Notes under the pieces: model-generated | The model's input: the letters and a program-made list of their open reading frames with translations, nothing else | Told to the model about the DNA's origin: nothing | Databases searched by the model: none | In this document: positions 2,246-37,972 of the stretch, in pieces | Layout of the letters: the number at the start of each line of letters is the position of its first letter | How positions within the stretch are numbered: position 1 is the first letter of the stretch | Translations under genes and position numbers: made by a program | NCBI GenBank assembly: GCA_913778085.1 | Contig: CAJYXJ010000028.1 | Span: forward strand, 1-64,000 | Length of the DNA: 64,000 bases | Direction: 5' to 3' | DNA from: an uncultured Chryseobacterium sp. | GTDB taxonomy: Bacteria; Bacteroidota; Bacteroidia; Flavobacteriales; Weeksellaceae

Positions 2246-2265
2246 AAAGTGTAATTTTTACATTT
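2246..2265 (+). promoter_or_regulatory. AraR-type operator 1 (upstream of GH30)
   Basis: An imperfect 20-bp palindrome with half-sites AAAGTGTAAT and TTTTACATTT; 8 of 10 positions pair. It shares the layout AAGTGT, 8 bp, ACAyTT with four other sites in the window (7774, 12629, 27023 reversed, 37953). It ends 16 bp before a TATATTTG -7 box, so it would cover the -33 region. Confidence 0.7.
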
Positions 2266-2281
2266 ATTTAAAATAGAATGT

Positions 2282-2289
2282 TATATTTG
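2282..2289 (+). promoter_or_regulatory. Promoter -7 box for GH30 gene
   Basis: TATATTTG matches the Bacteroidota TAnnTTTG -7 consensus exactly. No clear TTG is present at -33, where the palindrome at 2246-2265 lies instead. Transcription would start near 2296, leaving a leader of about 415 nt before the ATG at 2713. Confidence 0.55.
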
Positions 2290-2712
2290 TTTTTAACGGA
2301 ATGTGAAATTTCGTTCTTAAAAGGAATATAATTTCATACTTATTGAATTTTTTTGATAAAGACTGTATTTTATTCATATATGATTTGAGATCATTATGAT
2401 TTTCTGATAATGAAGGGCTGCATTCAATAATATTTTCCGGTAATAAAATACTTAGTCAAAATAAAATATACAAATCCACCAAACAACAGAATATGACGAA
2501 TCCATGATGCTATTTTATTTTGCGTATTTAAATCCCTTCTGAACGGGTAAATCAAAATATGCAAGGAATATTTTCCATCAATTTATTTGAATATCGGGCC
2601 TGACTTTCCGACAGTCAGGAAGCATTTTTAATGGAAAAAAGAACCATTTTGAAAACAGATTTAAAAATATGATTCAGCAGCTTGCTGATACTTTAACTTA
2701 AACAATAAGACT

Positions 2713-5436
2713 ATGAAAAAACTTGCTCAGCGCATTACCCTTGCTGCCGTCTGTATACTTACAGGCATCAGCATTTCCGGGCAGCTTACCACGGTAAGAA
2801 TCAACAAAAACACCACCTACCAGAAAATTACCGGATTCGGCGGATTCGTCTGCAGTCCGCAGTTCGGGTACAATCACATGACGACTTCGGAAATCCAGAC
2901 CCTGTGGGGAGCCGGCAGCCAGGGAGGTTATAACATTATGAGGCTCTATATCCCGGAAGACAGCAACAACTGGAGTTCCGTACTGGCTACGGCACAGCTT
3001 GCCAAATCGATGGGGCTCACCATCTTTGCAAGTCCGTGGACTATGCCCGCCGCATGGAAGACCAACAACCATGTAAATGCGGTGTATACGGATGCAAACG
3101 GCGTGCAGCAGATCGGATACCTGAAAACCGCCAATTACCAGGATTATGCCCTCTATCTCAACAGTTTCGTTACTTACCTGCAGAGCAACGGGGTAACGCT
3201 GGATTATATTTCCATTCAGAACGAACCGGATGAGATGGCACAGTATCAGGGGTGTATCTGGACACCGACGCAGATTGCCACTTTTGTACGCGATTACGGC
3301 CAGCTGATCAACTGTAAAGTCATTGCCCCAGAAAGTGTGGGCCTTACCGATAATTTTGCCAGTGCTATGCTGAACCAGCCGACCATGGATAATTTTGAAG
3401 TCTACGGTGGTCACCAGTACGGCCTGATGCAGTCCACCTACAAACAGTTCCAGAATTACAACAAAGAAATCTGGCAGACGGAATACCTGATCAACTGGAA
3501 CCCTTCTACCGGGACGCCGCGCGACTTCAGCTGGAACCTGGATGCCTTTAATTTCGCGTCCAGCATCAATAATGCCATGCTCGGCAATGTGAATGCCTGG
3601 ATTCATTACGCGGCCAAGCGGTATTATGCCCTAATGGGCGACGGAACGAACGGAACGACGACCGGAGTGATGACCAAAAGAGGCTATATTCTATCCCATT
3701 ATGCCAAATATACCACCGGGAAAACGCGTATCGCAGCAACCTGGGGCGACGCAACCGGAATGCTTCAGGGGTCTTCCTATATTTCACTCGATGGAAATCA
3801 GGTCGTGCTGATGATAATTAATCCTTCGGCGAATGCCTATAACTTAAAAGTGGATCTTCCGTTCTATTCCACATCAGGAACTAAAGTGCTGACGGATGCG
3901 CAGAACAATATGGCGACCACACCGATAACGATGGCACAGACTTTCAGGCCAGGCGTGACGATCAATGCTTCCAGCGTGATGACTTTCGTATTCAATAAAA
4001 GCGGTGACCGCCCGGTTTCATCGATGACCGGCAGCGACATCCGTTACAACAAGATTGAAACCATGACCACGACCAATTCCGCTTTTGGAACAGGCTTCAA
4101 CATCAGCAATACCACGGCAACATTTTCCAATGCCAGTCCGTTGATCAGCACCAATACCACTGCGGCAAACGGCTATTTACAGCTGAACGACCGCTACAAC
4201 AAAATGGTGCTTCATGTGAACAGCTTTACCACAGCGGGACAGAGCTATTCAGACAATACCACATTGTATTACATCAACAGCCAGGGGGTGACGAAATCTT
4301 ATAATTATGGTAAGATCACTTTCCCGGCGGGCGGTAATTTCGATATTACGCTTGATATTTCAAGACAGGTTTTAACGGACGGATGCAAAGGTATTTTAGG
4401 ACTGCGGAATTCAAACTACGGCTCCGTGCTCACTCTGAATTTAGGCGACGTGTATTTCAATGTCGGCAATGAGGTGGCTTCCAAATTTGCCGGAACATAT
4501 TCCGACGGCGACAGCAACCTGATGGATGCCCTGGAAAATGGTTATTATACTTCCGTGGATTTCAGGAATACGACGGGAACAACCTCCGCCAACAACTGGC
4601 AGCCGGTAAGTGCTAATTCCAACAGCATTTATTATGTGCCGGCTTCAGTAACTTCTTCTAGCAATAACGTGATTTCCGGAACCGGTGCTGCTAATCTTGT
4701 CCTTTCAGACCAAGGGAAAGATTTTCAGGTTCCGTTTACCTTCAGTGCATCAGCTGCATCATATTCCCGTACATTCAATGGATTTGAAATGCTGCTTTTA
4801 CCTTTCACGGCAAATATTCCATCCGGCGTAAGTGTTTATCAGTTGGCACCGGGTGCTACCGGAATAAGCTGCACGGCCATTACCAACGGAACCATTCCGG
4901 CCAATACACCGGTATTGGTGAATGCCACAGGAGCCGTTACCTTCCAGGGAACCGGAAATGTTTCCACGCCGAAAGCCATCACCATCAACCAGATGAACGG
5001 GGTGTACAACACTATTAAAGTTCCGGCGAACAGCTATGTTTTACAGACCGTCAACGGAACTCCTCAATTCTCGAAAGTCGTAGCGGGAAGCGAGCCGATG
5101 ATCAATCCTTTCAGAGCGTATTTAACTGAAGAGAATACCTACACCGCATCGGTACTTCCGTTAAGCTTTACGACACTGGCTACCGAAAATCTTCTTGCCG
5201 ATAAGAACGGACCTAGCCTTTATCCAAGTCCGGCAAAGAATGAAATTTTCATCGACCTGAAAACTTCCGGTACCGCTTCCGTATTTGATGCCAAAGGCAG
5301 TCTCATTATGAAAGACCAGCCATTACGTTCCGGTAAAAACCGTATCGAGATCGGGCACCTTCCTACAGGAATGTATCTGGTGGAAATTTCCCCATCCGGA
5401 AATAAATCCATTCAGAAAAAGTTTATCAAGCAGTAA
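2713..5436 (+). CDS. GH30 glucuronoxylanase with T9SS sorting domain
   Basis: A 907-residue secreted enzyme expected to cut beta-1,4 bonds in glucuronoxylan outside the cell. Residues 1-23 are a signal peptide (MKKLAQRITLAAVCILTG...). Residues about 28-450 are a GH30 catalytic domain: the acid/base is E171 in SIQNEPDE and the nucleophile is E257 in IWQTEYL. The segment AKRYYALMGDGTNGTT followed by MTKRGYILSHYAKY resembles subfamily 8, the glucuronoxylanases (family knowledge). Residues about 455-820 are additional beta-rich modules of uncertain type. The last 80 residues (LYPSPAKNEIFIDL to KKFIKQ) are a type A T9SS C-terminal sorting domain. It is the only protein in the window with such a domain, so it is the best candidate for surface or secreted first attack. 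An operator-like palindrome and a -7 box lie about 420 bp upstream. Confidence 0.82.
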   Translation: MKKLAQRITLAAVCILTGISISGQLTTVRINKNTTYQKITGFGGFVCSPQFGYNHMTTSEIQTLWGAGSQGGYNIMRLYIPEDSNNWSSVLATAQLAKSMGLTIFASPWTMPAAWKTNNHVNAVYTDANGVQQIGYLKTANYQDYALYLNSFVTYLQSNGVTLDYISIQNEPDEMAQYQGCIWTPTQIATFVRDYGQLINCKVIAPESVGLTDNFASAMLNQPTMDNFEVYGGHQYGLMQSTYKQFQNYNKEIWQTEYLINWNPSTGTPRDFSWNLDAFNFASSINNAMLGNVNAWIHYAAKRYYALMGDGTNGTTTGVMTKRGYILSHYAKYTTGKTRIAATWGDATGMLQGSSYISLDGNQVVLMIINPSANAYNLKVDLPFYSTSGTKVLTDAQNNMATTPITMAQTFRPGVTINASSVMTFVFNKSGDRPVSSMTGSDIRYNKIETMTTTNSAFGTGFNISNTTATFSNASPLISTNTTAANGYLQLNDRYNKMVLHVNSFTTAGQSYSDNTTLYYINSQGVTKSYNYGKITFPAGGNFDITLDISRQVLTDGCKGILGLRNSNYGSVLTLNLGDVYFNVGNEVASKFAGTYSDGDSNLMDALENGYYTSVDFRNTTGTTSANNWQPVSANSNSIYYVPASVTSSSNNVISGTGAANLVLSDQGKDFQVPFTFSASAASYSRTFNGFEMLLLPFTANIPSGVSVYQLAPGATGISCTAITNGTIPANTPVLVNATGAVTFQGTGNVSTPKAITINQMNGVYNTIKVPANSYVLQTVNGTPQFSKVVAGSEPMINPFRAYLTEENTYTASVLPLSFTTLATENLLADKNGPSLYPSPAKNEIFIDLKTSGTASVFDAKGSLIMKDQPLRSGKNRIEIGHLPTGMYLVEISPSGNKSIQKKFIKQ

Positions 5437-5468
5437 ATTTTTTAAACAAAGATCACCTTTTTATACTT

Positions 5469-5500
5469 CAAAGCCACCATAACCGGTGGCTTTGTTTTTT
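5469..5500 (+). terminator. Intrinsic terminator after GH30 gene
   Basis: A perfect 10-bp stem, CAAAGCCACC with GGTGGCTTTG, with a 6-nt loop is followed by TTTTTT. It ends the GH30 transcript and may also act on the converging S41 peptidase transcript. Confidence 0.85.
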
Positions 5501-5507
5501 GAAGTTC

Positions 5508-5540
5508 AAACCTCACAGGTTTTCAAAACCTGTGAGGTTT
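5508..5540. repeat. 33-bp palindrome, copy 1
   Basis: Perfect 16-bp arms (left arm AAACCTCACAGGTTTT) separated by one base. It belongs to a family of 33-bp palindromes also found at 10561, 15446, 15522, 34545 and 34592. A short T-run follows this copy, so it might also terminate transcription. Confidence 0.75.
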
Positions 5541-5608
5541 TTTAGCGTTATCAAGCATTTTAATACATTAATAAAGTTGAATGTAAGTCCGCTTAACTAA
5601 GTGCTGAT

Positions 5609-7773: not shown

Positions 7774-7793
7774 TAAGTGTTAATTACACATTT
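7774..7793 (+). promoter_or_regulatory. AraR-type operator 2 (upstream of GH3-GH51)
   Basis: A 20-bp imperfect palindrome with half-sites TAAGTGTTAA and TTACACATTT. It lies 16 bp before TATATTTG (7810-7817), the same spacing as operator 1. Confidence 0.72.
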
Positions 7794-7809: not shown

Positions 7810-7817
7810 TATATTTG
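7810..7817 (+). promoter_or_regulatory. Promoter -7 box for GH3-GH51 operon
   Basis: TATATTTG matches the TAnnTTTG consensus and leaves a leader of roughly 80 nt to the ATG at 7903. The -33 region is occupied by the palindrome at 7774-7793. Confidence 0.6.
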
Positions 7818-7902: not shown

Positions 7903-10539
7903 ATGAAAAAGATCACTTTAGGCATCAGCCTCCTCATCAGCACAGCATCGGGACTATCTGCACAGACCACCGGTACAGAACCGTTCAGAAATATTAAATT
8001 ACCTGTAGAACAGCGAATTGAAAACCTCCTCGGACTGCTGACGGTAGATGAAAAAATAGGAATGATGATGGATAATTCCAAAGCCGTTCCCCGGCTGGGT
8101 ATTCCCGCATACGGCTGGTGGAACGAGGCACTGCATGGTGTGGCAAGGGCAGGAACCGCTACGGTCTTTCCGCAGGCCATCGGATTGGCGGCAAGCTGGG
8201 ATGTCCCGGAACATCTGAAAACTTTTGAAATGATTTCTGACGAAGCCAGGGCCAAATACAACCGGTCTTTTGACGAAGCAGGAAAAACCGGACGATATGA
8301 AGGACTCACGTTCTGGACACCCAACATCAACATCTTCCGCGACCCGCGATGGGGAAGAGGGCAGGAAACCTACGGAGAAGACCCGTTCCTGACGGCAAGC
8401 CTGGGCGTAGCAGCCGTAAAAGGATTGCAGGGAAATGATTCCGACTACTTCAAAACGCACGCCTGCGCCAAGCACTTCGCCGTACACAGCGGCCCGGAAT
8501 GGAACCGGCACTCCTACAACGCTGAAATTTCCCATCGCGACCTTTATGAAACCTATCTGCCTGCTTTCAAAGCTTTGGTGATCGAAGGAAATGTAAGGGA
8601 GGTGATGTGTGCTTACAATGCTTTCGACGGACAGCCTTGCTGCGCCAATGATTTCCTGGTGAGCGACATCCTCCGCGGAAAATGGAAATACGACGGCATG
8701 GTCGTGTCCGACTGTTGGGCACTCGCCGATTTCTACCAGAAAAAATACCACGGAACCCATCCGGATGAAAAATCGACCGCCGCAGATGCACTGAAACATT
8801 CCACCGACCTTGAATGCGGGGATACTTATAATAATCTTAATAAATCCCTTTCAAGCGGACTGATCACTGAGAAAGATATCGATGCTTCCATGCGCAGAAT
8901 CCTGAAAGGCTGGTTTGAATTAGGTATGCTCGACCCGAAATCTTCCGTTCACTGGAACAGCATCCCGTACACAGTAGTCGATTCCGAAGAACATAAGCAG
9001 CAGGCCCTTAAAATGGCTCAAAAATCAATCGTTCTCATGAAAAACGATAAGAATGTTTTGCCATTAAACAAAAACATCAAAAAAATCGCCGTCGTAGGAC
9101 CAAATGCCGATGACGGATTGATGCAGCTCGGGAATTACAATGGAACGCCTTCTTCGATCGTGACCATTTTGGAAGGGATCAGAACCAAATTCCCAAATGC
9201 GGAGATCATTTACGAAAAAGGAAGTGAGGTGACCGATCCATCTTCAAGAACATCACTTTATCAGAACTTTTTAAGCCAGGAAAAAGGGGAAAAAGGTATG
9301 AAGGTGGAGTTTTTCAATAACAATGAATTCAAAGGATCACCGGCCAATATTTCCGTTAATAAAACCGGAATCAGCTACAACAGTTTCGGCGGTACCCAGC
9401 TTGCCCCGAACGTCGGCAGGGAAAATACCGCTGCAAAAATTTCAGGTATTTTTAAAAGTACCTATACCGGTGAAGTAATCTTTTCCGCATCCACTTCGGA
9501 TGTTTATACACTCTTTGTAAATGGGAAAGAAGTGGCTACCCGGAAAGGTCCCGATGCAAGGCATCCTTCGGAATTCCCTGTGAAAATGGAAAAAGGAAAA
9601 GAATATAACATCGAACTTCAACATAGGCAGATCGGCAAATATGTGAGCATCACATTTGACGTGTACAGAAAAGATCCTGTGAATTTCGCTGCCGTAAAGG
9701 AAAAAGTGAAAGATGCGGAAGTCATCATTTTTGCCGGCGGACTTTCCCCAAGCCTGGAAGGAGAGGAAATGATGGTGAATGCAGAAGGTTTCAAAGGCGG
9801 TGACAAAACCAATATCGAGCTTCCGAAAGTGCAGCGCGAACTGTTGGCCGAATTAAGAAAAACCGGAAAGCCCGTTGTTTTCGTTATGTGTACAGGAAGC
9901 GCCCTCGGATTGGAGCAGGATGAAAAGAATTATGATGCCCTGTTGAACGCCTGGTACGGCGGACAGTCCGGTGGTACGGCTGTAGCAGACGTACTTTCCG
10001 GGGATTACAACCCGTCCGGAAAGCTTCCGGTTACTTTCTATAAAAATATCGCACAGCTGGATAATGCCCTGTCCAAAACCGGCAAGCATGAGGGATTTGA
10101 AAATTACGACATGCAAGGAAGGACCTACCGGTATATGAAAGAAACGCCGTTATATCCATTCGGTCACGGGTTAAGCTATTCCACCTTTTCTTATGGGAAT
10201 GCAATCCTCAGCAAAAACGGCATCGGTACGGATGAAAACGTAACCATTTCAGTTCCTGTTACCAATACTTCAGGAAGAAACGGAGAAGAGGTTGTTGAGG
10301 TGTACATCAGACGGAATAATGATCCGCTGGCCCCGGTAAAAACACTCAGGGCCTTCCAAAGGGTATCCGTTCCGTCCAAAACTTCTAAAACTGTTCAGCT
10401 GACCCTGTCTCCGGATTCGTTTAGGTTCTATGACGAAAAAGCGGATGACCTGGTATCGAAACCTGGCGATTATACGATCCTCTACGGCGGAACCTCGGCC
10501 GATTCGGGATTAAAAAGCCTTTCTTTGAAAGTAAAATAA
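7903..10539 (+). CDS. GH3 xylan 1,4-beta-xylosidase with PA14 insert
   Basis: An 878-residue exported exo-enzyme that most likely releases D-xylose from xylo-oligosaccharides. Residues 1-20 are a signal peptide ending LSA-Q, so a periplasmic location is likely. The GH3 (beta/alpha)8 domain holds the nucleophile D270 in GMVVSDCWAL, preceded by the substrate-binding KHFAVHSGPE segment. Residues about 460-600 fit a PA14 insert within the second domain, an arrangement typical of GH3 beta-xylosidases from Bacteroidota (family knowledge). A fibronectin III-like domain (about 790-870) closes the protein. It is followed 75 bp later by a GH51 arabinofuranosidase, with only a 33-bp palindrome between, so the two form an operon behind operator 2. 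Arabinofuranosidase or glucosidase side activity is possible. Confidence 0.82.
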   Translation: MKKITLGISLLISTASGLSAQTTGTEPFRNIKLPVEQRIENLLGLLTVDEKIGMMMDNSKAVPRLGIPAYGWWNEALHGVARAGTATVFPQAIGLAASWDVPEHLKTFEMISDEARAKYNRSFDEAGKTGRYEGLTFWTPNINIFRDPRWGRGQETYGEDPFLTASLGVAAVKGLQGNDSDYFKTHACAKHFAVHSGPEWNRHSYNAEISHRDLYETYLPAFKALVIEGNVREVMCAYNAFDGQPCCANDFLVSDILRGKWKYDGMVVSDCWALADFYQKKYHGTHPDEKSTAADALKHSTDLECGDTYNNLNKSLSSGLITEKDIDASMRRILKGWFELGMLDPKSSVHWNSIPYTVVDSEEHKQQALKMAQKSIVLMKNDKNVLPLNKNIKKIAVVGPNADDGLMQLGNYNGTPSSIVTILEGIRTKFPNAEIIYEKGSEVTDPSSRTSLYQNFLSQEKGEKGMKVEFFNNNEFKGSPANISVNKTGISYNSFGGTQLAPNVGRENTAAKISGIFKSTYTGEVIFSASTSDVYTLFVNGKEVATRKGPDARHPSEFPVKMEKGKEYNIELQHRQIGKYVSITFDVYRKDPVNFAAVKEKVKDAEVIIFAGGLSPSLEGEEMMVNAEGFKGGDKTNIELPKVQRELLAELRKTGKPVVFVMCTGSALGLEQDEKNYDALLNAWYGGQSGGTAVADVLSGDYNPSGKLPVTFYKNIAQLDNALSKTGKHEGFENYDMQGRTYRYMKETPLYPFGHGLSYSTFSYGNAILSKNGIGTDENVTISVPVTNTSGRNGEEVVEVYIRRNNDPLAPVKTLRAFQRVSVPSKTSKTVQLTLSPDSFRFYDEKADDLVSKPGDYTILYGGTSADSGLKSLSLKVK

Positions 10540-12628: not shown

Positions 12629-12648
12629 TAAGTGTATTTATTACATTT
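12629..12648 (+). promoter_or_regulatory. AraR-type operator 3 (upstream of araB)
   Basis: A 20-bp imperfect palindrome, TAAGTGTATT with TATTACATTT, 15 bp before TATATTTG (12664-12671). A further half-site-like GAGTGTTAA lies at 12612-12620. Confidence 0.72.
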
Positions 12649-12663
12649 AATTAAAAAGAATCT

Positions 12664-12671
12664 TATATTTG
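12664..12671 (+). promoter_or_regulatory. Promoter -7 box for ara operon
   Basis: TATATTTG is a perfect Bacteroidota -7 box downstream of operator 3. It implies a leader of about 210 nt before araB. Confidence 0.6.
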
Positions 12672-26977: not shown

Positions 26978-26985
26978 CAAAGGTA
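26978..26985 (-). promoter_or_regulatory. -7 box for araR-like gene
   Basis: On the minus strand this reads TACCTTTG, a good TAnnTTTG box 16 bp before the start codon. The operator at 27023-27042 lies about 37 bp further upstream. Confidence 0.5.
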
Positions 26986-27022: not shown

Positions 27023-27042
27023 AAATGTATTTATAACACTTT
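27023..27042 (-). promoter_or_regulatory. AraR-type operator 4 (araR / GH127 divergent region)
   Basis: On the minus strand it reads AAAGTGTTAT with AAATACATTT, the same asymmetric form as operators 1-3. It lies between araR (minus) and the GH127-GH67 operon (plus), so one site could serve both, or mainly araR autoregulation. Confidence 0.7.
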
Positions 27043-27242: not shown

Positions 27243-27501
27243 CGATAAGTATCGGAAATAAATATATGAGATAATGCATAAATTTCGGCTATTCTTTTTT
27301 TATACAATCAATTTCAGCACAAATATCTAGTAATCCTCTTATTCGGTAATCTTATTTTTTATGATAAGTAGGGGTGGTTGAGAAAGCATCTCAGGTTGTC
27401 ATAATCATATAATTTACAAATTTCATCCTCTGCTTTTGTAAAATTCTTTGTCATCTAGATTCTTTCTTTTACTTTTAGAAATGTTGCAAGGACATTTATT
27501 A

Positions 27502-29883
27502 ATGAACAAAAAATCGCTGATATGTATTTTGGGTTTTGGCTCACTCGCTTTCGGGCAGGTGAACAAGACTGTAAGTTATTTTCCGCTGAATCAGGTTATG
27601 CTGTCAGAAAGTGTTTTCAGCAGAGCGATGCAGACGGATAAAAATTATGTGATGTCTATGGATCCCGACCGTCTGCTTTCACCTTACCTCAAGGAAGCGG
27701 GTCTTAATCCTGAAAAGCAGAATTACCCGAACTGGGAAAATACAGGTCTGGATGGCCACATCGGCGGACATTATCTCTCTGCATTGGCATTGATGTACGC
27801 TTCTACCGGCGATGCAAAAGTAAAACAGCGCCTTGATTATATGGTCAATCAACTGGAACGCTGCCAAGACCTTTCCGGAAACGGCTATATTTCCGGGGTT
27901 CCGAACGGTAAAAAGATCTGGAAGGAAATTGCGGAAGGCAACATCCGGTCCTCATCATTTGGGCTGAACGACCGCTGGGTTCCTTTATATAATATCCATA
28001 AAACTTATTCAGGACTACGCGATGCCTATTGGTACGCTGGAAGTGAAAAGGCAAAAAAGATGCTGATCCGGTTGACAGACTGGATGGCCAATGAAGTATC
28101 CGGACTTTCCGACGAACAGATCCAGGATATGCTCAGGAGCGAGCACGGTGGGCTGAATGAAGTCTTCGCCGATGTATACGACATTACAAAAGATAAAAAA
28201 TACCTTCAGCTGGCACACCGGTTTTCCCATCAGGCGATCCTGAACCCGCTGCTGAACGGTGAAGATAAACTTACGGGAATCCACGCCAATACGCAGATCC
28301 CCAAAGTGATCGGTTTCAAACGCATTGCCGATCTGGAACATAATCAGGAGTGGAATAGTGCTGCCGATTTTTTCTGGAACAACGTTACGCACAAACGTTC
28401 TTCGATCATCGGAGGGAACAGCGTAAGTGAACATTTTAACCCGACAAATGATTTCAGCAGCATGATCAAAAGTATTGAAGGTCCCGAAACCTGTAATACT
28501 TATAATATGCTGAAACTTACAAAACAGCTTTTCGCCACTCTGCCCAAATCCTATTATATGGATTATTACGAGCGGGCACTGTACAATCATATCCTTTCCA
28601 CAGAGAATCATGAAAAAGGCGGTTTCGTCTATTTCACGCCGATGCGTCCCGGTCATTACCGGGTATATTCGCAGCCGCAGACCAGCTTCTGGTGCTGCGT
28701 AGGATCGGGAATGGAAAACCACGCCAAATACGGCGAAATGATTTACGCACATTCGGATCAGGACCTGTATGTGAATTTATTTATTCCGTCCACTTTACAA
28801 TGGTCAGAGAAAAAAGTAATGCTGCGTCAGATCAATAATTTTCCTGAAAATCCGGAAACAAAACTGGTTTTTGATCTTGCCGGAAATTCGGTACTGAATC
28901 TTAAACTCCGGTCTCCGGAATGGGCAACGCCTTCGGAAGTGAAAATCCTAATTAACGGCAAACTGCAAAGCGTACAGCCTGATGCAGACGGCTATTATAC
29001 CCTGACGAAAAAATGGAAAAAAGGAGATACGGTGGAAATGAAGCTGCCGATGCGCCTAACCGCAGAACAGCTGCCGGATCACTCGGATTATTATGCCTTT
29101 AAATATGGTCCTGTTGTTCTTGCTGCTCCTTATGGAAAGGAAAACCAGCAGGGGCTTCTGGCGGATGACAGCCGCGGCGGACATATTGCCCACGGTCCGC
29201 AGATTCCTTTAAATGAAATTCCTTTAATCGAAGGAAATGCTTCTGAAGTCCTGAACCATGTACAGCCGGTAAGCGGTAAAAACCTTTCGTTCAGCATCAG
29301 CGGGTTATATCCTTCTGAAAAATTTACCAAAGGGCTTCAGCTGGTTCCGTTTTACACCATTCAGGAAGAACGGTATATCCTGTACTGGCCGCAGGCAGAT
29401 CGCAATAAAATAGAAATCGTACAGAAGCAGAGAGCACAGGAAGAAGCCGAAACAAGAAAGCTTGACCAGATTACCATTGATAAGATCCAGTTGGGAGAAC
29501 AGCAGCCGGAATCCGATCATTTCTTTGAAAGTAAGGATTCTAATACGGGATATATGGAAGACCGCCATTTCCGGGATGCCAAAGGCTGGTTCAGCTACCG
29601 CATGAAGAACCCAGGAAAAAATGCAGCTTTCCTGTATGTTATGTATTTTGACAACAATGCCGGACGTATACTGAGTGCCGAAATCAACGGGAAAAAAGTC
29701 GTCGCTAAAAAACTCGAAGGCAAAGCCGGGAATGCACCGCAGTATATGCTTTTACCAATACCCGATTCTGAAAAAAATAAAGAAGATCTTACTGTAAAAT
29801 TCTTTGCAGAAGATCAGGCCGTGACCTCAAGAATCATTGAAGTCAGGCTTCTTACCCAAAACTATGAAAAATCCATCAGGTAA
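27502..29883 (+). CDS. GH127-type beta-L-arabinofuranosidase
   Basis: A 793-residue exported glycosidase (DUF1680 family). I choose 27502 because MNKKSLICILGFGSLAFGQ is a proper signal peptide; the frame extends to 27448 without family resemblance. The zinc/cysteine catalytic site is visible: E329 and C331 in GPETCNTYNMLKLT, and C398 and C399 in SFWCCVGSGMENH; in the family the first Cys of the CC pair is the nucleophile (family knowledge). Beta-sandwich domains follow the (alpha/alpha)6 barrel. It would release beta-linked L-arabinofuranose, although DUF1680 relatives include other activities. It opens a six-gene run to 37791; the next gene starts 20 bp on. Confidence 0.82.
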   Translation: MNKKSLICILGFGSLAFGQVNKTVSYFPLNQVMLSESVFSRAMQTDKNYVMSMDPDRLLSPYLKEAGLNPEKQNYPNWENTGLDGHIGGHYLSALALMYASTGDAKVKQRLDYMVNQLERCQDLSGNGYISGVPNGKKIWKEIAEGNIRSSSFGLNDRWVPLYNIHKTYSGLRDAYWYAGSEKAKKMLIRLTDWMANEVSGLSDEQIQDMLRSEHGGLNEVFADVYDITKDKKYLQLAHRFSHQAILNPLLNGEDKLTGIHANTQIPKVIGFKRIADLEHNQEWNSAADFFWNNVTHKRSSIIGGNSVSEHFNPTNDFSSMIKSIEGPETCNTYNMLKLTKQLFATLPKSYYMDYYERALYNHILSTENHEKGGFVYFTPMRPGHYRVYSQPQTSFWCCVGSGMENHAKYGEMIYAHSDQDLYVNLFIPSTLQWSEKKVMLRQINNFPENPETKLVFDLAGNSVLNLKLRSPEWATPSEVKILINGKLQSVQPDADGYYTLTKKWKKGDTVEMKLPMRLTAEQLPDHSDYYAFKYGPVVLAAPYGKENQQGLLADDSRGGHIAHGPQIPLNEIPLIEGNASEVLNHVQPVSGKNLSFSISGLYPSEKFTKGLQLVPFYTIQEERYILYWPQADRNKIEIVQKQRAQEEAETRKLDQITIDKIQLGEQQPESDHFFESKDSNTGYMEDRHFRDAKGWFSYRMKNPGKNAAFLYVMYFDNNAGRILSAEINGKKVVAKKLEGKAGNAPQYMLLPIPDSEKNKEDLTVKFFAEDQAVTSRIIEVRLLTQNYEKSIR

Positions 29884-29903: not shown

Positions 29904-31823
29904 ATGAATATCCATAAATCAAAAACCGCTTCTTTTCTTATTGTCAGCATTTTCAGCCTGTCCATGATGGAAGCCAAAGTAAAGCTTCCTGCCCTGGTTT
30001 CGGACGGGATGATCCTGCAACGGAATATGCCGCTGAAAATCTGGGGATCTGCCGATGCTGGTGAAAAGGTAAATGTTAAATTTTTAAATAAAACCTACAC
30101 GACCAGCGCCGATAAAAGCGGGAACTGGAACATCATGCTTCCCGAACTGAAAGCCGGCGGACCATACGTGATGACGATCAATGAGATCACATTGAAAGAT
30201 ATCCTGATCGGTGATGTATGGGTAGCTTCCGGACAATCCAATATGGAGCTTCCGATGCGCAGGCTGACCCCTCTCTATGGTGAAGAGATAAAGAAGGCAA
30301 ATAATAAAAACATCCGGTTCTTCACAGTACCTCAAAAATACAATTTCAAAACTCCGCAGACGGAACTCGACGGCGGTAAATGGCAATCTACCGATCCGCA
30401 GACCATTCTGGATTTTTCAGGAGTAGCATATTTTTTTGCCAAAGAAATCAATGCCGAAGATAAAGTTCCGGTGGGAATCATCCATACCAGCCTCGGAGGA
30501 TCTCCGGTACAGGCCTGGATGGACACGAATTCCCTGAAAAAATATCCCGAATATCTGGAGGAAGCCAAAAAATGGCAGAATGATGACCTGATTAAATCCA
30601 CCGAATCCGGTGAGCAGGCAGCCAGCAGAGCCTGGTATACCGAACTTGATCAGAATGATCCCGGACTGGCACAGCATTGGGAAAAAGCGGATGTCGATGA
30701 CTCCGGATGGAAAACCCTGAAGGTTCCGGGATCATGGGAAGATCAGGAAGGATCTTTTGACGGAACGGTTTGGCTGAGAAAAGAAATCAATGTACCGGCA
30801 GGATCAGCCGGGAAATCAGCTTTTTTAAATTTAGGAAGGATTAAAGATGCCGATGTTACTTACATCAATGGCGTAAAAGTCGGTAATGTAACCTATGAAT
30901 ATCCGCCACGCTGGTACGACATTCCAGCAGGTGTACTGAAGGACGGAAAGAACATCATTACCGTCCGCATCACCAACGGAAATGGAAGAGGGCAGTTCAT
31001 TGCCGACAAACCGTACTACCTGGAAGTCGGAGGTCAGAAAATAGACCTTACCGGAAACTGGAAATATAAAGTCGGGGCAAAAATGTCGAGAGTTGCTCCC
31101 GGGCAGACCTTCATTCGCTGGAAACCGACCGGACTGTACAATTCGATGATCAATCCGCTGACCAATTATAAAGTAAAAGGATTCCTCTGGTACCAGGGAG
31201 AAAGCAATACCGGAAAACCGAAAGAATACGGCAACCTGCTGACGACCATGATTACCGACTGGCGCAACAAATGGAATGAGCAAAACGCACCGTTCCTGAT
31301 TGTGCAGCTGGCCAACTTTATGGAAACCAAGAGCCAGCCGGTTGAAAGCAACTGGGCCGAGCTGAGGGATCAGCAGCGCCTGGTTTCCCAGACCGTTCCG
31401 AATACCGGACTGGCCGTAACCATCGATGTAGGAGAGTGGAATGACATCCATCCGCTGAATAAAAAAGCAGTCGGTGACCGTCTGGCTTTCCAGGCTTTGA
31501 AAATAGCCGATAAAAAGAATATTACAGCAGACGGACCGGTGTACCAGTCGATGAAGACGGAAGGAAATAAAATCATACTTTCTTTCAAAACCGGAACAGA
31601 TGATCTTGCAGGAGTAGCCGAACTGAAAGGCTTTGCCATCAAAAATTCAGATGGAAGCTGGGCCTGGGCTAAAGCAAAAGTCGAAAACAAAAAAGTTGTT
31701 GTCTGGAACGATGATGTTAAAAATCCGGTAGCCGTACGCTATGACTGGGCCGACAATCCGGACGGCAACCTCAAAAACACAGCCGGGCTTCCTGCGTCAC
31801 CTTTTACAACAGAAAAAAATTAA
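29904..31823 (+). CDS. SGNH acetylesterase (sialate O-acetylesterase/CE20-like)
   Basis: A 639-residue exported esterase, signal peptide about residues 1-24. The nucleophile is S112 in WVASGQSNMELPM, a block III motif is FLWYQGESNT, and the Asp/His pair is D514 and H516 in WNDIHPLNKK. Between the SGNH halves, residues about 235-385 form an inserted jelly-roll-like domain (GWKTLKVPGSW, then VWLRKEINVPAG), the arrangement of CE20-type hemicellulose acetylesterases (family knowledge). In this operon the most likely substrate is acetyl on xylan oligosaccharides rather than sialic acid. It lies 20 bp after GH127 and 20 bp before the GPH symporter, clearly co-transcribed. Confidence 0.8.
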   Translation: MNIHKSKTASFLIVSIFSLSMMEAKVKLPALVSDGMILQRNMPLKIWGSADAGEKVNVKFLNKTYTTSADKSGNWNIMLPELKAGGPYVMTINEITLKDILIGDVWVASGQSNMELPMRRLTPLYGEEIKKANNKNIRFFTVPQKYNFKTPQTELDGGKWQSTDPQTILDFSGVAYFFAKEINAEDKVPVGIIHTSLGGSPVQAWMDTNSLKKYPEYLEEAKKWQNDDLIKSTESGEQAASRAWYTELDQNDPGLAQHWEKADVDDSGWKTLKVPGSWEDQEGSFDGTVWLRKEINVPAGSAGKSAFLNLGRIKDADVTYINGVKVGNVTYEYPPRWYDIPAGVLKDGKNIITVRITNGNGRGQFIADKPYYLEVGGQKIDLTGNWKYKVGAKMSRVAPGQTFIRWKPTGLYNSMINPLTNYKVKGFLWYQGESNTGKPKEYGNLLTTMITDWRNKWNEQNAPFLIVQLANFMETKSQPVESNWAELRDQQRLVSQTVPNTGLAVTIDVGEWNDIHPLNKKAVGDRLAFQALKIADKKNITADGPVYQSMKTEGNKIILSFKTGTDDLAGVAELKGFAIKNSDGSWAWAKAKVENKKVVVWNDDVKNPVAVRYDWADNPDGNLKNTAGLPASPFTTEKN

Positions 31824-31843: not shown

Positions 31844-33298
31844 ATGAATAATCATCCACAGAAAATATCAGTATCCGAAAAGATAGGCTACAGCTTAGGT
31901 GACCTTGCGGCCAACCTTGTTTTTCAGACCCTGGTTACGTACCTCGCTTATTTTTATACCGATATTTACGGACTCAAGCCGGAAGATGCTTCCATCATTA
32001 CCCTGATTGTAGGTCTCATCGCAGGATTCGGATTCAATCCGGTAATCGGCGCATTGGCAGACCGGACCAAAACCAAATGGGGAAAATTCCGTCCGTGGAT
32101 TTTATTTACAGCTGTTCCTTTGGGAATTGCTGCTCTTCTTGCCTTCAGCACACCCGGTTTTTCATATAAAGGAAAAATGATCTATGCCGCAATTACCTAT
32201 TCCTTGCTTTTATTACTGTATGCGGCCAACAACCTGCCGTATGCCGCATTGAGCGGGGTAATTACCGGAGACATGGGAGAACGTAACAGTATTTCTTCCT
32301 ACCGTTTCGTAGCGGTGATGTTTGCCCAGTTCTTCGTGCAGGTATTTATGCTTCCGATCATCCTGTCCGCAGGGCATGGCGACAAAGCAGCCGGTATTGA
32401 AACGGTAATGACCTGGCTGGCCATCATTGGCTCGGTAATGCTGCTGATTACTTTTTTCACGACGAAAGAAAGGATCATCCCGACCTCCGATCAGAAATCA
32501 AGCCTGAAAGAAGACCTGAAAGACCTTTCCAGAAATAAGCCGTGGATCATCATGCTTACCGTAACGGCCTTAATTTTTATTACATTGGCGATGAAGGGAG
32601 GTTCTTATGTGTACTATTTCAACAATTACGTGGATGAACCGGCTTTGGCCTCTTTCATTTCACCGATCACCAACTTTTTTAATTCCATCGGAATGAATTT
32701 CTTCGGGGAAGACCCGAGGTCAGCAGGATTCGGTTTGTTCAACGCAGGAGGGATCATCATGATGATTGTGGGGATTACCTTTTCTAAAAAATTTGCTGAT
32801 AAATACGGTAAAAGAGATGCATTTATTGCTTCCCTCTTTATTTCGACCTTATTTATTGTTGCTTTTATCTTCTATCCGCCCAAATCGGTAGGATTAATGT
32901 TCCTGTCACAGATTCTTCACGGATTCTTTTACGGGATCAGCACCCCGCTTCTTTGGGCCATGATTGCCGATGTAGCCGACTATTCCGAATGGAAAAACAA
33001 CCGACGCGCCACGGCGATTATTTTCTCAGCCATGATGGTCGGATTAAAAGTTGGATTGAGCATCGGAAGCTCATTGGTTTCTTCAATCATCGGGCATTAC
33101 GGCTATATTTCTTCGGAAGGAGCCGAAAACGTAATCCAGCCGGAAACCGTAGCGGCGGGAGCCAAAATGCTGGTGAGTATTTTCCCGTCTATTCCGTTCT
33201 TCCTGTCCTGTGGCCTGCTGTTTTTCTATAAAATCAATAAGAAAATGGAAGTTCAGATCGAACGTGACCTTAAAGAAAGAAGAAGAAAAGAGGATTGA
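31844..33298 (+). CDS. GPH-family glycoside:cation symporter (MFS)
   Basis: A 484-residue inner-membrane transporter with about 12 hydrophobic segments. The N-terminus EKIGYSLGDLAANLVFQT and the loop DRTKTKWGKFRPWIL are the signature of glycoside-pentoside-hexuronide symporters (MelB, XylP type). The position between an acetylesterase and a GH10 xylanase suggests import of xylo-oligosaccharides or xylosides (inference). This would explain the presence of a signal-less GH43 in the same operon, which could act on the imported sugar. A 114-bp gap with two short repeats precedes the GH10 gene. Confidence 0.87.
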   Translation: MNNHPQKISVSEKIGYSLGDLAANLVFQTLVTYLAYFYTDIYGLKPEDASIITLIVGLIAGFGFNPVIGALADRTKTKWGKFRPWILFTAVPLGIAALLAFSTPGFSYKGKMIYAAITYSLLLLLYAANNLPYAALSGVITGDMGERNSISSYRFVAVMFAQFFVQVFMLPIILSAGHGDKAAGIETVMTWLAIIGSVMLLITFFTTKERIIPTSDQKSSLKEDLKDLSRNKPWIIMLTVTALIFITLAMKGGSYVYYFNNYVDEPALASFISPITNFFNSIGMNFFGEDPRSAGFGLFNAGGIIMMIVGITFSKKFADKYGKRDAFIASLFISTLFIVAFIFYPPKSVGLMFLSQILHGFFYGISTPLLWAMIADVADYSEWKNNRRATAIIFSAMMVGLKVGLSIGSSLVSSIIGHYGYISSEGAENVIQPETVAAGAKMLVSIFPSIPFFLSCGLLFFYKINKKMEVQIERDLKERRRKED

Positions 33299-33412: not shown

Positions 33413-34531
33413 ATGAAGAAAGCCATTGCAGTATTAGGAATTTTAGCCCTCACGGTTTCGTGTAAAACGGCACAGACCGCATCAGGCGATTCCCTGAAAG
33501 ATGCCTTTAAAAATAAATTCTACATCGGAACGGCTATGAGCCTTCCGCAGATCGACGGGACGGATGTAAAATCCGACGATATCATCAGAAAGCAGTTCAG
33601 TTCCATTGTGGCCGAAAACTGTATGAAATCCATGTTTATCCAGCCGCAGGAAGGTCAGTTTTTCTTTGGTGACGCCGATAAATTCGTGGCTTTTGGAGAG
33701 AAAAACAAAATGTTCATCATCGGGCATACGCTGATCTGGCATTCCCAGTTGCCGAAATGGTTTTTCGTAGGCAAAGACGGCAAAGATGTTTCCCCGGAAG
33801 TCCTGAAACAGCGGATGAAGAGCCATATTTCCACTTTGGTGGGTCGGTACAAAGGCCGGGTAAAAGGCTGGGATGTCGTGAATGAAGCTATTATGGAGGA
33901 TGGAACCTACAGGAAATCTAAGTTTTACGAAATCCTGGGCGAAGAATTTATTCCGCTTGCTTTCCAGTACGCACAGGAAGCAGATCCGAATGCCGAACTT
34001 TATTACAATGATTACAATGAATGGTTTCCGGAAAAAGTAAAAACCGTTACCAGAATTGTTAAGGATTTAAGATCAAGAGGAATAAGGATCGATGGAGTAG
34101 GCATGCAGACCCACGTAGGGCTCGACAATCCGAAACTGGAAGAATATGAAAAAGCCATCACCGATTACGCGGCAGCCGGAGTAAAGGTCAATGTTACCGA
34201 AATGGAAATCAGCGCCTTGCCTTCACCTTGGGGAACTTCAGCCAATGTTTCCGACAAAGTGGAATACGAAGCGAAAATGAATCCTTACACCAAAGGGCTT
34301 CCTGAAAACGTTCAGAAAGAATGGGAAACCCGGTACCTGGATTTCTTCAGGATGTTCATCAAGCATCAGGACCAGATCAGACGTGTTACGTTGTGGGGCG
34401 TTACCGATAACCAATCCTGGAAAAACGATTTCCCGGTAAGAGGCAGAACCGATTATCCGCTTCTTTTCGACCGTAATTACCAGGCAAAACCGGTAGTGGA
34501 GAAAATCATTGAATTAACAAAAGAAAAATAA
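33413..34531 (+). CDS. GH10 endo-1,4-beta-xylanase, lipoprotein
   Basis: A 372-residue xylanase. The N-terminus has a lipobox with Cys17 (LALTVSC), so it is anchored to a membrane. The GH10 barrel shows the acid/base E158 in [12 protein letters not shown] and the nucleophile E263 in VNVTEMEIS, with [12 protein letters not shown] near residue 105. The length fits a single catalytic domain without a binding module. It would cut the xylan backbone, complementing the secreted GH30. It lies inside the GH127-GH67 operon; two 33-bp palindromes separate it from GH43. Confidence 0.93.
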
Positions 34532-34660: not shown

Positions 34661-35635
34661 ATGAACAAAGCAAAATACCTTTTCCCGAAAGATTATATGG
34701 CGGATCCTTCCGTACACGTTTTTGAAGGCAAACTGTATATCTATCCTTCCCATGACCGTGAAAGCGGCATTGAAGAAAACGACAACGGCGACCATTTCGA
34801 TATGAATGATTACCATGTTTTTTCCCTTGATAATATGGAAAACGGTGAAATTACGGACCACGGCGTAGTGCTTTCGGTAGAGGATATTCCATGGTCGGGA
34901 AGACAGTTATGGGATTGCGATGTCGCCCATAAAGACGGTAAGTACTATATGTATTTTCCGCTGAAAGATAAAAACGATATTTTCAGGATCGGTGTAGCGG
35001 TAAGCGACAAGCCGTACGGGCCTTTCGTTCCGGAAAAACATCCGATGATGGGAAGCTACAGCATCGATCCCTGCCTTTTTGAGGATGGCGGAAAGCATTA
35101 TATGTACTTCGGAGGCATCTGGGGCGGACAGTTGCAGCGTTACCGAAACAACAAAGCCTTAGAATCTGCCGTGATCCCGAATGATAACGAGCCGGCGATC
35201 CCATCAAAAGTTGTGATGTTGAGCGACGATATGCTGGAATTCGGTGAAGAGCCGAAAGACGTGATGATCCTTGACGAAAACGGAAACCAACTGCTTCACG
35301 GTGATAAGCACCGCTTTTTTGAAGCTTCGTGGATGCACAAATACAATGGCAAATATTACTTCTCCTATTCCACAGGAGATACCCACCTGATCTGCTATGC
35401 AACCGGTGATAATCCATATGGACCGTTTACGTTCCAAGGGGAAATCCTGACGCCGGTTGTCGGCTGGACCACCCACCACAGCATTGTGGAATTTGAAGGG
35501 AAATGGTATCTGTTCTTCCACGATTCCGTTCCGAGCGGCGGAAGAACGTTGCTGAGAAGCATGAAAGTCGTTGAAATCGAATATGATAACGACGGCAAAA
35601 TAAAAACCATAGAAGGGATGGAAGAAAATCAGTAA
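34661..35635 (+). CDS. GH43 beta-xylosidase/arabinofuranosidase (cytoplasmic)
   Basis: A 324-residue five-bladed propeller enzyme without a signal peptide (MNKAKYLFPKDYMADPSVHV). The catalytic triad is visible: D15 (base, MADPSVHV), D136 (YSIDPCLF) and E221 (acid, FFEASWMHK). The short single-domain form with this N-terminus resembles GH43 subfamily 1, which has xylosidase and arabinofuranosidase members (family knowledge). Its lack of a signal, amid exported partners, suggests that it acts on oligosaccharides brought in by the GPH symporter encoded two genes upstream. The next gene is a GH67. Confidence 0.88.
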   Translation: MNKAKYLFPKDYMADPSVHVFEGKLYIYPSHDRESGIEENDNGDHFDMNDYHVFSLDNMENGEITDHGVVLSVEDIPWSGRQLWDCDVAHKDGKYYMYFPLKDKNDIFRIGVAVSDKPYGPFVPEKHPMMGSYSIDPCLFEDGGKHYMYFGGIWGGQLQRYRNNKALESAVIPNDNEPAIPSKVVMLSDDMLEFGEEPKDVMILDENGNQLLHGDKHRFFEASWMHKYNGKYYFSYSTGDTHLICYATGDNPYGPFTFQGEILTPVVGWTTHHSIVEFEGKWYLFFHDSVPSGGRTLLRSMKVVEIEYDNDGKIKTIEGMEENQ

Positions 35636-35648
35636 TCTTGGATCAACT

Positions 35649-35673
35649 TTGTCAGGGCTCATAGCCCTGACAA
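35649..35673. repeat. Intercistronic hairpin between GH43 and GH67
   Basis: An 11-bp perfect stem, TTGTCAGGGCT with AGCCCTGACAA, with a 3-nt loop. There is no T-run. Unlike the 33-bp family in sequence, but placed the same way. Confidence 0.6.
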
Positions 35674-35757
35674 GTTCCAACAGCCATAGGTGAAACCTCT
35701 GGAAAAATATAGCAGGCAAACCCTGTTCAATTCAATTCAAAATTAAAATAAATCCCG

Positions 35758-37791
35758 ATGCAGCATTTCCGAACTTATCTTATGCTATTCCTGATGGTTC
35801 CGATGATGATTTTCGCGGAAGATGGAAGTCAGCTCTGGCTCCGGTTTCCGGCAAAAAACGGAATATCCTCTGAAAAGATCATGGCTAAAAGCAACAGCCC
35901 AACCCTGAAAATTGCCCGGAAAGAACTGACCGGTCACTGGCAAGGGCAAACGGTAGAACTAAAGCTGGAAAAGTCCTTGAAAAACCTGAAAGACGGGTAC
36001 CGGATAATCTCTTCCTCTGAAAAAATCATTGTTTCGGCACCGAAAGAAGCCGGACTGCTGTATGGGGTGTACCACATACTCAGGCTGCAGCAGACCAACG
36101 CCAATCTCAACAATCTGAATATTACCGAAAAACCTTCTTACGATGTGCGTATCCTGAATCATTGGGATAATCTGGACGGAAGTATTGAGCGCGGATATGC
36201 GGGCCACTCTTTATGGAAATGGGAAGACCTGCCCAATACCGTTTCGCCGAGATACGAAGAATATGCAAGAGCAAATGCTTCGGTTGGAATCAACGCAACT
36301 GTATTAAATAATGTGAACGCTTCTCCGAACATGCTCCGTGAAGATTACCTGAAAAAAGTAAAGGTGCTGGCAGATATTTTCAGACCATACGGGATTAAGG
36401 TGTATTTGTCTGTCAATTTCTCCTCCCCGAAAGTATTGGGCGGAACAGAGAACTCGGATCCGCTGAACAAAGACGTTCAGAGGTGGTGGAAAGAAAAGGC
36501 TGCCCAAATTTATAAAATGATTCCCGACTTCGGCGGATTCCTGGTGAAAGCCAATTCCGAAGGGCAGCCGGGACCGCAGGATTATGGAAGGACCCATGCC
36601 GACGGCGCCAATATGATGGCCGATGTCCTGAAACCTTACGGCGGAATAGTGATGTGGAGGGCATTTGTGTACAGTCCAAGCAAAGAAGACCGTGCCAAGC
36701 AGGCCTATCTTGAATTTGTTCCGCTGGACGGGAAATTCAGGGACAATGTCATTATCCAGATCAAGAACGGGCCGGTAGATTTCCAGCCGAGGGAAGCTTT
36801 CAACCCGCTTTTCGGGGCGTTGAGGAAAACACCGGAAATGGTGGAATTTCAGATTACGCAGGAATATCTGGGACAGGCCAATCACCTGGCTTACCTGGCT
36901 CCGTTATTTAAAGAAACCCTGGAAAGCGATACCTATGCCAACGGAAAAGGATCGACCATCGCTAAAATTACCGACGGTACATTAAGACCGGGAAAACTCA
37001 CTGCCATTTCAGCGGTGGCTAATATCGGCGAAGATACCAACTGGACGGGCCATCAGTTTGCCCAATCCAACTGGTATGCCTTCGGAAGACTGGCCTGGAA
37101 TCATGAGCTGACTTCAGAACAGATCGCTGACGAATGGATCAAAATGACCTTTACCGACAAGCCGGAATTTTTAAATCCGGTAAAGCAGATGATGCTAACT
37201 TCCCGCGAAACGGTGGTGGATTACATGATGCCTTTGGGCCTTCACCACATCTTTGCCGGAAACCACCACTACGGCCCGGAACCGTGGGGCGATTACAAAG
37301 GCGGAAGACCGGATTGGTCGCCGGTGTATTATCACCAGGCGGATGCAAACGGAATCGGCTTCGACCGGACCAAAACCGGAAGCAATGCCGTTTCCCAATA
37401 TTTTCCGCCGTTGAATGAAATCTACGGAAATATCGGAACCTGCCCGGAAAATCTGATCTTGTGGTTCCATCACGTGCCCTGGGATTACAAAATGAAAGAC
37501 GGCAAAACCATGTGGGACAAGCTGTGTTACAAATACGATTCTGGGGTTCATCAGGTAAGGGAATACCAGAAGACCTGGGACCGGATGCAGCCTTATATCG
37601 ATGAGCAGCGTTTCGCTGAGGTTCAGTCCAAGCTGAAAATCCAGGCAAAAGATGCCGTTTGGTGGAAAGATGCCTGCCTGCTGTACTTCCAGACCTTCTC
37701 CAAGAGACCGATTCCGTATGACATCGAACGCCCGGTGAACGAGCTGGAAGACCTTAAGAAAATCAAGCTGAATATGGGACATCATAATTAA
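35758..37791 (+). CDS. GH67 alpha-glucuronidase
   Basis: A 677-residue enzyme that removes (4-O-methyl)glucuronic acid from the non-reducing end of xylo-oligosaccharides. The signal peptide is about residues 1-20 (MMIFAED). The catalytic acids E268 (VKANSEGQPGP), D341 (GPVDFQPREAF) and E369 (QITQEYLG) are spaced 73 and 28 residues apart, exactly the spacing in characterised GH67 enzymes (E292/D365/E393; family knowledge). It complements the GH30 glucuronoxylanase, whose products carry glucuronate. It is the last gene of the GH127 operon, with a strong hairpin downstream. Confidence 0.93.
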   Translation: MQHFRTYLMLFLMVPMMIFAEDGSQLWLRFPAKNGISSEKIMAKSNSPTLKIARKELTGHWQGQTVELKLEKSLKNLKDGYRIISSSEKIIVSAPKEAGLLYGVYHILRLQQTNANLNNLNITEKPSYDVRILNHWDNLDGSIERGYAGHSLWKWEDLPNTVSPRYEEYARANASVGINATVLNNVNASPNMLREDYLKKVKVLADIFRPYGIKVYLSVNFSSPKVLGGTENSDPLNKDVQRWWKEKAAQIYKMIPDFGGFLVKANSEGQPGPQDYGRTHADGANMMADVLKPYGGIVMWRAFVYSPSKEDRAKQAYLEFVPLDGKFRDNVIIQIKNGPVDFQPREAFNPLFGALRKTPEMVEFQITQEYLGQANHLAYLAPLFKETLESDTYANGKGSTIAKITDGTLRPGKLTAISAVANIGEDTNWTGHQFAQSNWYAFGRLAWNHELTSEQIADEWIKMTFTDKPEFLNPVKQMMLTSRETVVDYMMPLGLHHIFAGNHHYGPEPWGDYKGGRPDWSPVYYHQADANGIGFDRTKTGSNAVSQYFPPLNEIYGNIGTCPENLILWFHHVPWDYKMKDGKTMWDKLCYKYDSGVHQVREYQKTWDRMQPYIDEQRFAEVQSKLKIQAKDAVWWKDACLLYFQTFSKRPIPYDIERPVNELEDLKKIKLNMGHHN

Positions 37792-37827
37792 TCGGGATTT
37801 TTAATTCAGATTGATACAACATATACC

Positions 37828-37880
37828 ATTTCCTGCAGATGAAACAGAAATCCTTCTGCAGGAAATTTAAACTTAATTTT
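37828..37880 (+). terminator. Terminator after the GH127-GH67 operon
   Basis: A perfect 12-bp stem, ATTTCCTGCAGA with TCTGCAGGAAAT (37828-37866), with a 15-nt loop, then a T-rich tail ending TTTTTT at about 37880. Confidence 0.65.
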
Positions 37881-37934
37881 TTAGTTGCACTGATTTTTTA
37901 AATAAACAATTCATCTTTTCTTAAACGAAAGGAA

Positions 37935-37966
37935 TTTGTCTGTTTATTAAATTAAGTGTAAATTTA
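37935..37966 (+). promoter_or_regulatory. Promoter of the tal-tkt-galK-galT operon
   Basis: TTTG at 37935-37938 (-33) and TAAATTTA at 37959-37966 (-7, last base off consensus) are separated by 20 bp, the spacing of Bacteroidota promoters. The -7 box lies inside operator 5, a classical repression geometry. Confidence 0.5.
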
Positions 37967-37972
37967 ACACTT
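37953..37972 (+). promoter_or_regulatory. AraR-type operator 5 (tal-tkt-galKT operon)
   Basis: The most symmetrical copy: TAAGTGTAAA and TTTAACACTT. It ends only 22 bp before the start codon at 37995. Confidence 0.75.

Follow-up and report, generated by a model that had tools for sequence, protein, structure and literature searches.

Which regulator acts through the palindromes that precede the arabinose and xylan genes in this stretch of 64,000 nucleotides from an uncultured Chryseobacterium sp. (contig CAJYXJ010000028.1; hereafter the window), and to which signal does it respond? Our combined findings make it highly probable that an ortholog of AraR, a sugar repressor known from Bacteroides, represses these genes via the operator AAGTGT-N7-ACAYTT and is released from it by L-arabinose. 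A coherent AraR-type regulon had been proposed previously from the letters of the window (the sequence-only reading), and is supported here by orthology, by the co-occurrence of both araA and the motif with AraR, and by the recurrence of the sites in relatives.

Predicted operator sites in the window and the genome

A scan of the 64-kb window found exact matches to AAGTGT-N7-ACAYTT at all five places where palindromes had been noted (Table 1), and none in 100 shuffles of the window. The five sites are thus real, but their spacer is 7 bp: the 8-bp spacer of the sequence-only reading has no exact match anywhere in the window, and its site starts, except for the correct 27023, were each one base too low. 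By hidden Markov model (HMM) matches, the genes behind the sites are those that had been named, although the assignment of 27023 to the operon running from GH127 to GH67 (GH, glycoside hydrolase family) is doubtful.

The genome (4.63 Mb, 82 contigs) holds 7 distinct exact sites, 5 of them within the window (binomial p 1e-8). Outside it, the site at C5:20765 is intergenic and precedes a xylose operon, and that at C24:68950 lies within an open reading frame (ORF) and was set aside as a regulon member. The motif is therefore not frequent before unrelated genes, a concern raised by the earlier reading. Sites with one mismatch are not in excess (58 strand hits genome-wide vs 59 for a reversed-pattern control), and so no regulon members were drawn from them.

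The regulator

The 228-aa protein encoded beside the operator at 27023 had been recognized as a regulator with a winged helix and a degenerate Nudix box. Pfam agrees, with NUDIX, NrtR_WHD and AraR_C all above cut-off and NrtR_WHD outscoring AraR_C. Read by eye, its Nudix box is RVLNTLTGL where the signature requires REUXEEXGU, and thus appears impaired. The best solved relative is BtAraR of Bacteroides thetaiotaomicron (E 1e-68; 49.8% identity, blastp). The top six Protein Data Bank matches of an AlphaFold2 model (pLDDT 90, built on a 16-sequence alignment) were all AraR entries, with TM values of 0.82-0.84 to 5bs6. We surveyed residues in 45 loci of the family, including that of the window, and in 4 loci of another family of the order, f3. 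The arabinose-pocket residues Y5, R34, F36, G47, G48, F49, R86, F129 and H131 are kept in 45/45 and 4/4 loci, respectively, as are the DNA-contact residues K179, R180 and N181. Pocket position V92 of BtAraR is I in the family loci and T in f3, and the DNA-contact position K204 is K in 36 and R in 9 of the 45. Judged by its sequence, modelled fold and ligand-pocket residues, the gene is an AraR ortholog. The nearest named regulator, 100% identical, comes from an uncultured Chryseobacterium metagenome-assembled genome, and relatives at 79-93% identity belong to Chryseobacterium and Epilithonimonas.

Conservation across genomes

We called AraR orthologs in 297 genomes of the family at an identity of at least 73% (next match, 43%) and found one in 77 genomes. 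The regulator clusters with arabinose catabolic genes, and araA (E <= 1e-100) was present in 76 of the 77 AraR-positive genomes and in 0/220 AraR-negative ones, the only AraR-positive genome that lacked it (G156) being 73% complete. The motif was counted in 180 of the 297 genomes, from the three genera that hold AraR. For the genus of the window, 63 AraR-positive genomes had a mean of 6.9 strand hits (3-10) vs 1.8 (0-5) in 87 AraR-negative ones, with the reversed-pattern control at 3.7 vs 3.0 (p 0.065). The second genus had means of 6.5 in 12 AraR-positive and 0.9 in 11 AraR-negative genomes, and the third 6.0 (2 genomes) and 0.2 (5 genomes).

The position of the sites is conserved as well. 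We compared the window with 20 regions fetched from relatives: 19 of these 21 have an exact site 49-67 bp before araR, and exact sites also precede GH3, araB and tal in 15/16, 17/19 and 14/16 genomes, respectively. Exact sites were also found in 9 of 12 fetched 20-kb araR-homolog regions from other families of the order (8/9 in f3), and precede araBDA genes in three genomes (G437, G524 and G413). Site positions, their conservation and their co-occurrence with AraR are direct observations. The layout AAGTGT-N7-ACAC, given for the BtAraR operator in Table 2 of PMC4666351, is found at arabinose operons in both the window and its relatives.

One genome, G119, carries two AraR orthologs (73% and 90% identical to that of the window; contigs C3 and C35) as well as two araA genes, a duplication that is a possible test case for operator divergence.

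Promoter geometry

Bacteroidota promoters carry the -7 element TAnnTTTG together with a -33 element at a usual spacing. Among 77 exact sites, 39 are followed by a TAnnTTTG whose start lies 34-36 bp beyond their own (exactly 35 bp in 32 cases); the chance expectation for these three positions over 77 sites is ~0.1, with the genomes being related. All 29 such promoters that were chosen for having AAGTGT as the first arm have ACATTTA as the gene-proximal one, and none of the promoters listed has the operator reversed. In the window, the proximal arm falls at the expected -33 position at the GH30, GH3 and araB promoters, for which steric repression is the simplest reading; this overlap suggests that these promoters are repressed. 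Other sites are arranged differently across relatives: the araR sites, which begin 45-57 bp ahead of their -7 element, fall upstream of the -33 region, and those of tal lie 37-44 bp from the ATG (once 214), without a TAnnTTTG element.

We also searched the genome with a profile built from the promoters of relatives. The top matches were GH3 (E 1.9e-12), GH30 (E 3.1e-11) and araB (E 2.1e-8), followed by a match at E 0.03. Since the training set already contained identical copies of the GH3 and araB promoters, with that of GH30 distinct by 2 bases, the informative part of this result is that no further promoter in the genome scored. About 420 nt separate the -7 element of GH30 from its ATG (2290-2712), with no convincing ORF in between; either this is a long leader, or the GH30 promoter is wrongly placed.

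The araR-GH127 intergenic region

The site at 27023 lies 62 bp from the araR ATG, in agreement with the site that had been noted at the promoter of the regulator itself, vs 479 bp from the likely ATG of GH127. For the latter gene we moved the start from the TTG at 27448 to the ATG at 27502, which precedes a signal-peptide-like stretch. The site most likely serves araR, rather than clearly serving GH127. The unit opposite araR comprises, by HMM matches, genes for GH127, a SASA-domain protein, a GPH symporter, GH10, GH43 and GH67. A degenerate form, AAATGT-N7-ACATTT, ends 4 bases before the GH127 ATG and occurs at about the same place in 15/21 regions, where its arms hardly vary but its spacer does. 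The genome contains two copies of this form vs one copy on each strand for the reversed-pattern control, and its rarity is therefore no proof alone. By its position, this site is a better candidate operator for the GH127-GH67 operon than 27023, yet a weaker one than the exact sites. The other copy lies between a divergent pair of GH115 alpha-glucuronidase genes (C21:86364-86382). In three relatives, the only ones with close orthologs among 80 genomes searched, the left arm at this place is AATTGT; as the arm is not kept, the C21 site stays a weak candidate.

The xylose operon and other NrtR-family proteins

The exact site at C5:20765 lies ~300 bp before genes for an NrtR-type regulator (xylR), xylulokinase, xylose isomerase, SusC, SusD and UxuA. 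We surveyed this position in 20 hand-picked genomes out of the 62 AraR-positive ones and in 19 AraR-negative genomes with xylR, the search for which covered 80 of the 87 AraR-negative genomes of the genus. An exact site precedes xylR in 18/20 AraR-positive genomes, with one mismatch in the other two, vs 0/19 AraR-negative ones (Fisher 3e-9, uncorrected for relatedness). A trio of genomes illustrates this contrast: the AraR-positive G216 and G173 have an identical operator, whereas in the AraR-negative G188 it has lost 1 bp and carries two substitutions, with no change in the xylR-proximal palindrome, although the flanking sequence diverges too. The xylR tree does not distinguish gain of AraR from loss. 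The pattern of sites indicates that the regulon probably includes xylR-xylBA-susCD on this other contig.

The xylR-proximal palindrome, ATGATAACCTTATCAT (C5:20922-20937), is surrounded by further TTATCAT half sites. It or a variant in the central dinucleotide is present in 20/20 AraR-positive genomes and, at the proximal position, in 6/19 AraR-negative ones. We consider ATGATAA-CC-TTATCAT a candidate operator of XylR.

Other members of the NrtR family were also found. A regulator with Nudix and NrtR winged-helix domains is encoded at 55004-55753 (- strand) of the window, directly next to the gene for a small Nudix protein (54533-55003) and not far from a GH3 gene. An NrtR-type paralog on contig C40 is 38% identical to BtAraR, has R at the NrtR phosphate position and lies within 9 kb of genes for Sir2, ADP-ribosylglycohydrolase and PARG; it may be an ADP-ribose/NAD regulator.

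A repressor model and its alternatives

We propose that, without L-arabinose, an AraR dimer would bind AAGTGT-N7-ACAYTT. Bound at the GH30, GH3-GH51 and araBDA promoters it would cover the -33 region and block RNA polymerase. Its own gene and tal-tkt-gal would be repressed as well, and so, with less certainty, would the xylR-led operon. L-arabinose freed from glucuronoarabinoxylan would occupy the dead Nudix pocket and rotate the winged helices, and the DNA would be released. We infer repression, effector and conformational switch from BtAraR (PMC4666351).

Several observations weigh against this model. Genome-wide, exact strand hits number 10 vs 7 for the reversed-pattern control, so that clustering and promoter position, not number, carry the evidence. 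The -33 geometry is missing from the tal, GH127 and xylR sites. A site precedes GH30 in only 4/15 genomes (the window, G043, G098 and G242), and transcription of the GH30 genes that lack one may come from a xylan operon upstream. The araR site is absent in G078 and from the second copy in G119, as is the GH3 site in G159, and no exact site was found within ~2 kb of the orthologs of Maribacter (7 loci) and Pedobacter (2). Of K179, R180, N181, K184, K204 and R205, called absolutely conserved DNA contacts in AraR (PMC4666351), K184 is replaced by S in 44 and by N in 1 of the 45 family loci, and R205 by K in all 45. The alignment in that paper consists of Bacteroides and Prevotella orthologs, so that the change at these two positions points to divergence between lineages and does not exclude the protein from AraR. 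Finally, the genomes are related: the xylR tree, which has 41 rows, shows 7 changes between presence and absence of AraR, of which only 3 are required by branches with good support, and a tree-based sign test on 3 independent pairs on starred branches cannot reach 0.05.

The sites might instead belong to another NrtR-family regulator (the XylR-like protein of C5, the 55004-55753 paralog or that of C40), with AraR binding elsewhere. The genome encodes four or more NrtR-type proteins that have this winged helix, and the XylR-like protein co-occurs with AraR too, being present in 62/62 other AraR-positive genomes of the genus. However, the 19 AraR-negative genomes with this protein have a motif mean of 1.2 and no site before xylR, and ownership of the sites by XylR is not supported. 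Moreover, the C5 protein (33% identical to BtAraR) has I/K in place of K179 and R180, the latter of which intercalates DNA in BtAraR (PMC4666351), and a different palindrome precedes its gene. From these comparisons, which among the three paralogs covered the XylR-like protein, we regard a change of regulator as very improbable. We find it hardly credible that the palindrome has nothing to do with AraR and is instead a conserved promoter element or an UP-like one. Its AT-richness and constant spacing from the -7 element would fit such a role, but its occurrence follows that of AraR from genome to genome, and the genome holds no other promoter of this class scoring below E 0.03.

If AraR does bind the sites, it could act as an activator, or as both activator and repressor. 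The araR sites upstream of the -33 region and the xylR site ~200-300 bp from the start codon are compatible with such modes. Against activation, the GH30, GH3 and araB sites overlap the -33 region, starting at a constant 34-36 bp before the -7 element, BtAraR drops DNA upon binding L-arabinose, and its operons are reported to be induced by arabinose or arabinose polymers (PMC4666351), leaving this alternative improbable. It is also unlikely, if somewhat less so, that the effector is another pentose, an oligosaccharide or several compounds rather than specifically L-arabinose. Many of the predicted targets are xylan genes, and D-xylose at 0.5 mM or more partly impairs BtAraR binding (PMC4666351); nonetheless, the residues that hydrogen-bond L-arabinose are kept in 45/45 family loci, and the co-occurrence of araA with AraR is near perfect. 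Repression relieved by L-arabinose thus remains our preferred reading.

Features of the window

The coordinates of sites and genes are collected in Table 1. Upstream of GH30, an ORF at 474-1241 weakly matches an NCBIfam transcriptional regulator model (E 1e-4), presumably of AraC type, and has a homolog (79%) beside the locus in G242 as well. Rfam gave no match in the window at gathering scores.

Table 1 Operators, promoter elements and genes of the predicted AraR regulon in the window
Feature	Position	Strand	Sequence or remark
Predicted AraR operator before GH30	2247..2265	+	AAGTGTAATTTTTACATTT; exact match
-7 element of GH30	2282..2289	+	TATATTTG; 35 bp from operator start
GH30, glucuronoarabinoxylanase-like	2713..5436	+	type IX secretion system (T9SS) sorting tail; HMM matches
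Predicted AraR operator before GH3-GH51	7775..7793	+	AAGTGTTAATTACACATTT; exact match
-7 element of GH3	7810..7817	+	TATATTTG; 35 bp from operator start
GH3 beta-xylosidase, Xyl3A-like	7903..10539	+	slightly below NCBIfam cut-off
GH51-type alpha-L-arabinofuranosidase	10614..12593	+	
Predicted AraR operator before araB	12630..12648	+	AAGTGTATTTATTACATTT; exact match
-7 element of araB	12664..12671	+	TATATTTG; 34 bp from operator start
araB, ribulokinase	12887..14587	+	
araD, L-ribulose-5-phosphate 4-epimerase	14722..15420	+	
araA, L-arabinose isomerase	15610..17106	+	
Mutarotase, GalM-like	17130..18290	+	
Sodium/solute symporter	18293..20020	+	arabinose as probable substrate
araR, Nudix-like and winged-helix repressor (NrtR family)	26275..26961	-	BtAraR ortholog; degenerate Nudix box
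-7 element of araR	26978..26985	-	TACCTTTG; 56 bp from operator start
Predicted AraR operator before araR	27023..27041	-	AAGTGTTATAAATACATTT; exact match, 62 bp 5' of ATG; predicted autoregulation
Degenerate second operator candidate	27479..27497	+	AAATGTTGCAAGGACATTT; AAATGT-N7-ACATTT, before GH127 ATG 27502
GH127 beta-L-arabinofuranosidase	27502..29883	+	
SASA-domain carbohydrate esterase	29904..31823	+	
GPH-family (pentoside) symporter	31844..33298	+	
GH10 xylanase	33413..34531	+	
GH43	34661..35635	+	
GH67 alpha-glucuronidase	35758..37791	+	
Predicted AraR operator before tal	37954..37972	+	AAGTGTAAATTTAACACTT; exact match, symmetric arms, 41 bp before ATG
tal, transaldolase/fructose-6-P aldolase	37995..38648	+	TalC/FSA type
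Transketolase (tkt), N-terminal half	38605..39498	+	ORF overlaps the end of tal; actual start probably further downstream
Transketolase (tkt), C-terminal half	40074..41027	+	
galK	41191..42378	+	
galT	42338..43411	+	

Relation to known regulators and significance

The AraR type and its operator have been published for Bacteroides and Prevotella, with BtAraR (BT0354; 5bs6, 5dd4, 5ddg, 5deq) as the solved example (PMC4666351). The window protein has the same fold at 50% identity and shares with it the pocket residues, the degenerate Nudix box and the N7 operator layout, and both regulons include araBDA with mutarotase, transporter and GH51 genes. The window differs in that each promoter has one exact operator, rather than the tandem pair of the BtAraR ara operon, that araR lies outside the araBDA operon, and that two DNA-contact residues are altered. 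Its predicted regulon also extends to GH10, GH43, GH67, GH30, GH3, tal/tkt, gal and probably xylR; since arabinan and arabinoxylan loci belong to the AraR regulon of Bacteroides too, this widening is one of degree.

XylR, known in Bacteroides (BT0791) and several other Bacteroidetes (PMC3878776), belongs to the NrtR family as does the window protein, which is an AraR ortholog instead. It is the C5 paralog that heads xylR-xylB-xylA, like the xylRBAE of that paper, a likeness drawn from the operon and not from the BT0791 sequence. NrtR of Shewanella oneidensis, a regulator of NAD metabolism (3gz5, 3gz6), has the same Nudix and winged-helix architecture at 27-28% identity, but the window protein differs at its N/K/R ADP-ribose positions, having F36, L67 and T89. 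Our search of the open-access literature turned up no description of an AraR regulon from Flavobacteriia. What is added here, the regulator and motif being known from Bacteroides, is a new lineage, a promoter geometry and a set of predicted targets among xylan genes, xylR and tal/tkt.

With these findings, the known range of a sugar repressor of solved structure reaches beyond gut Bacteroidales into Chryseobacterium and related bacteria, with sites that lend themselves to individual assay. The fixed module of operator and -7 element suggests a design for arabinose-inducible promoters in the genus, and AraR-negative genomes that retain xylR provide natural comparisons. More tentatively, and with less than even confidence, we suggest that the entire programme for glucuronoarabinoxylan is under the control of one L-arabinose sensor, from hydrolysis and pentoside uptake through arabinose and xylose catabolism and the pentose-phosphate enzymes to the xylR operon. 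If true, AraR would be placed above XylR, and these bacteria would read arabinose decoration as a cue for xylan, with the side chain signalling the presence of the backbone.

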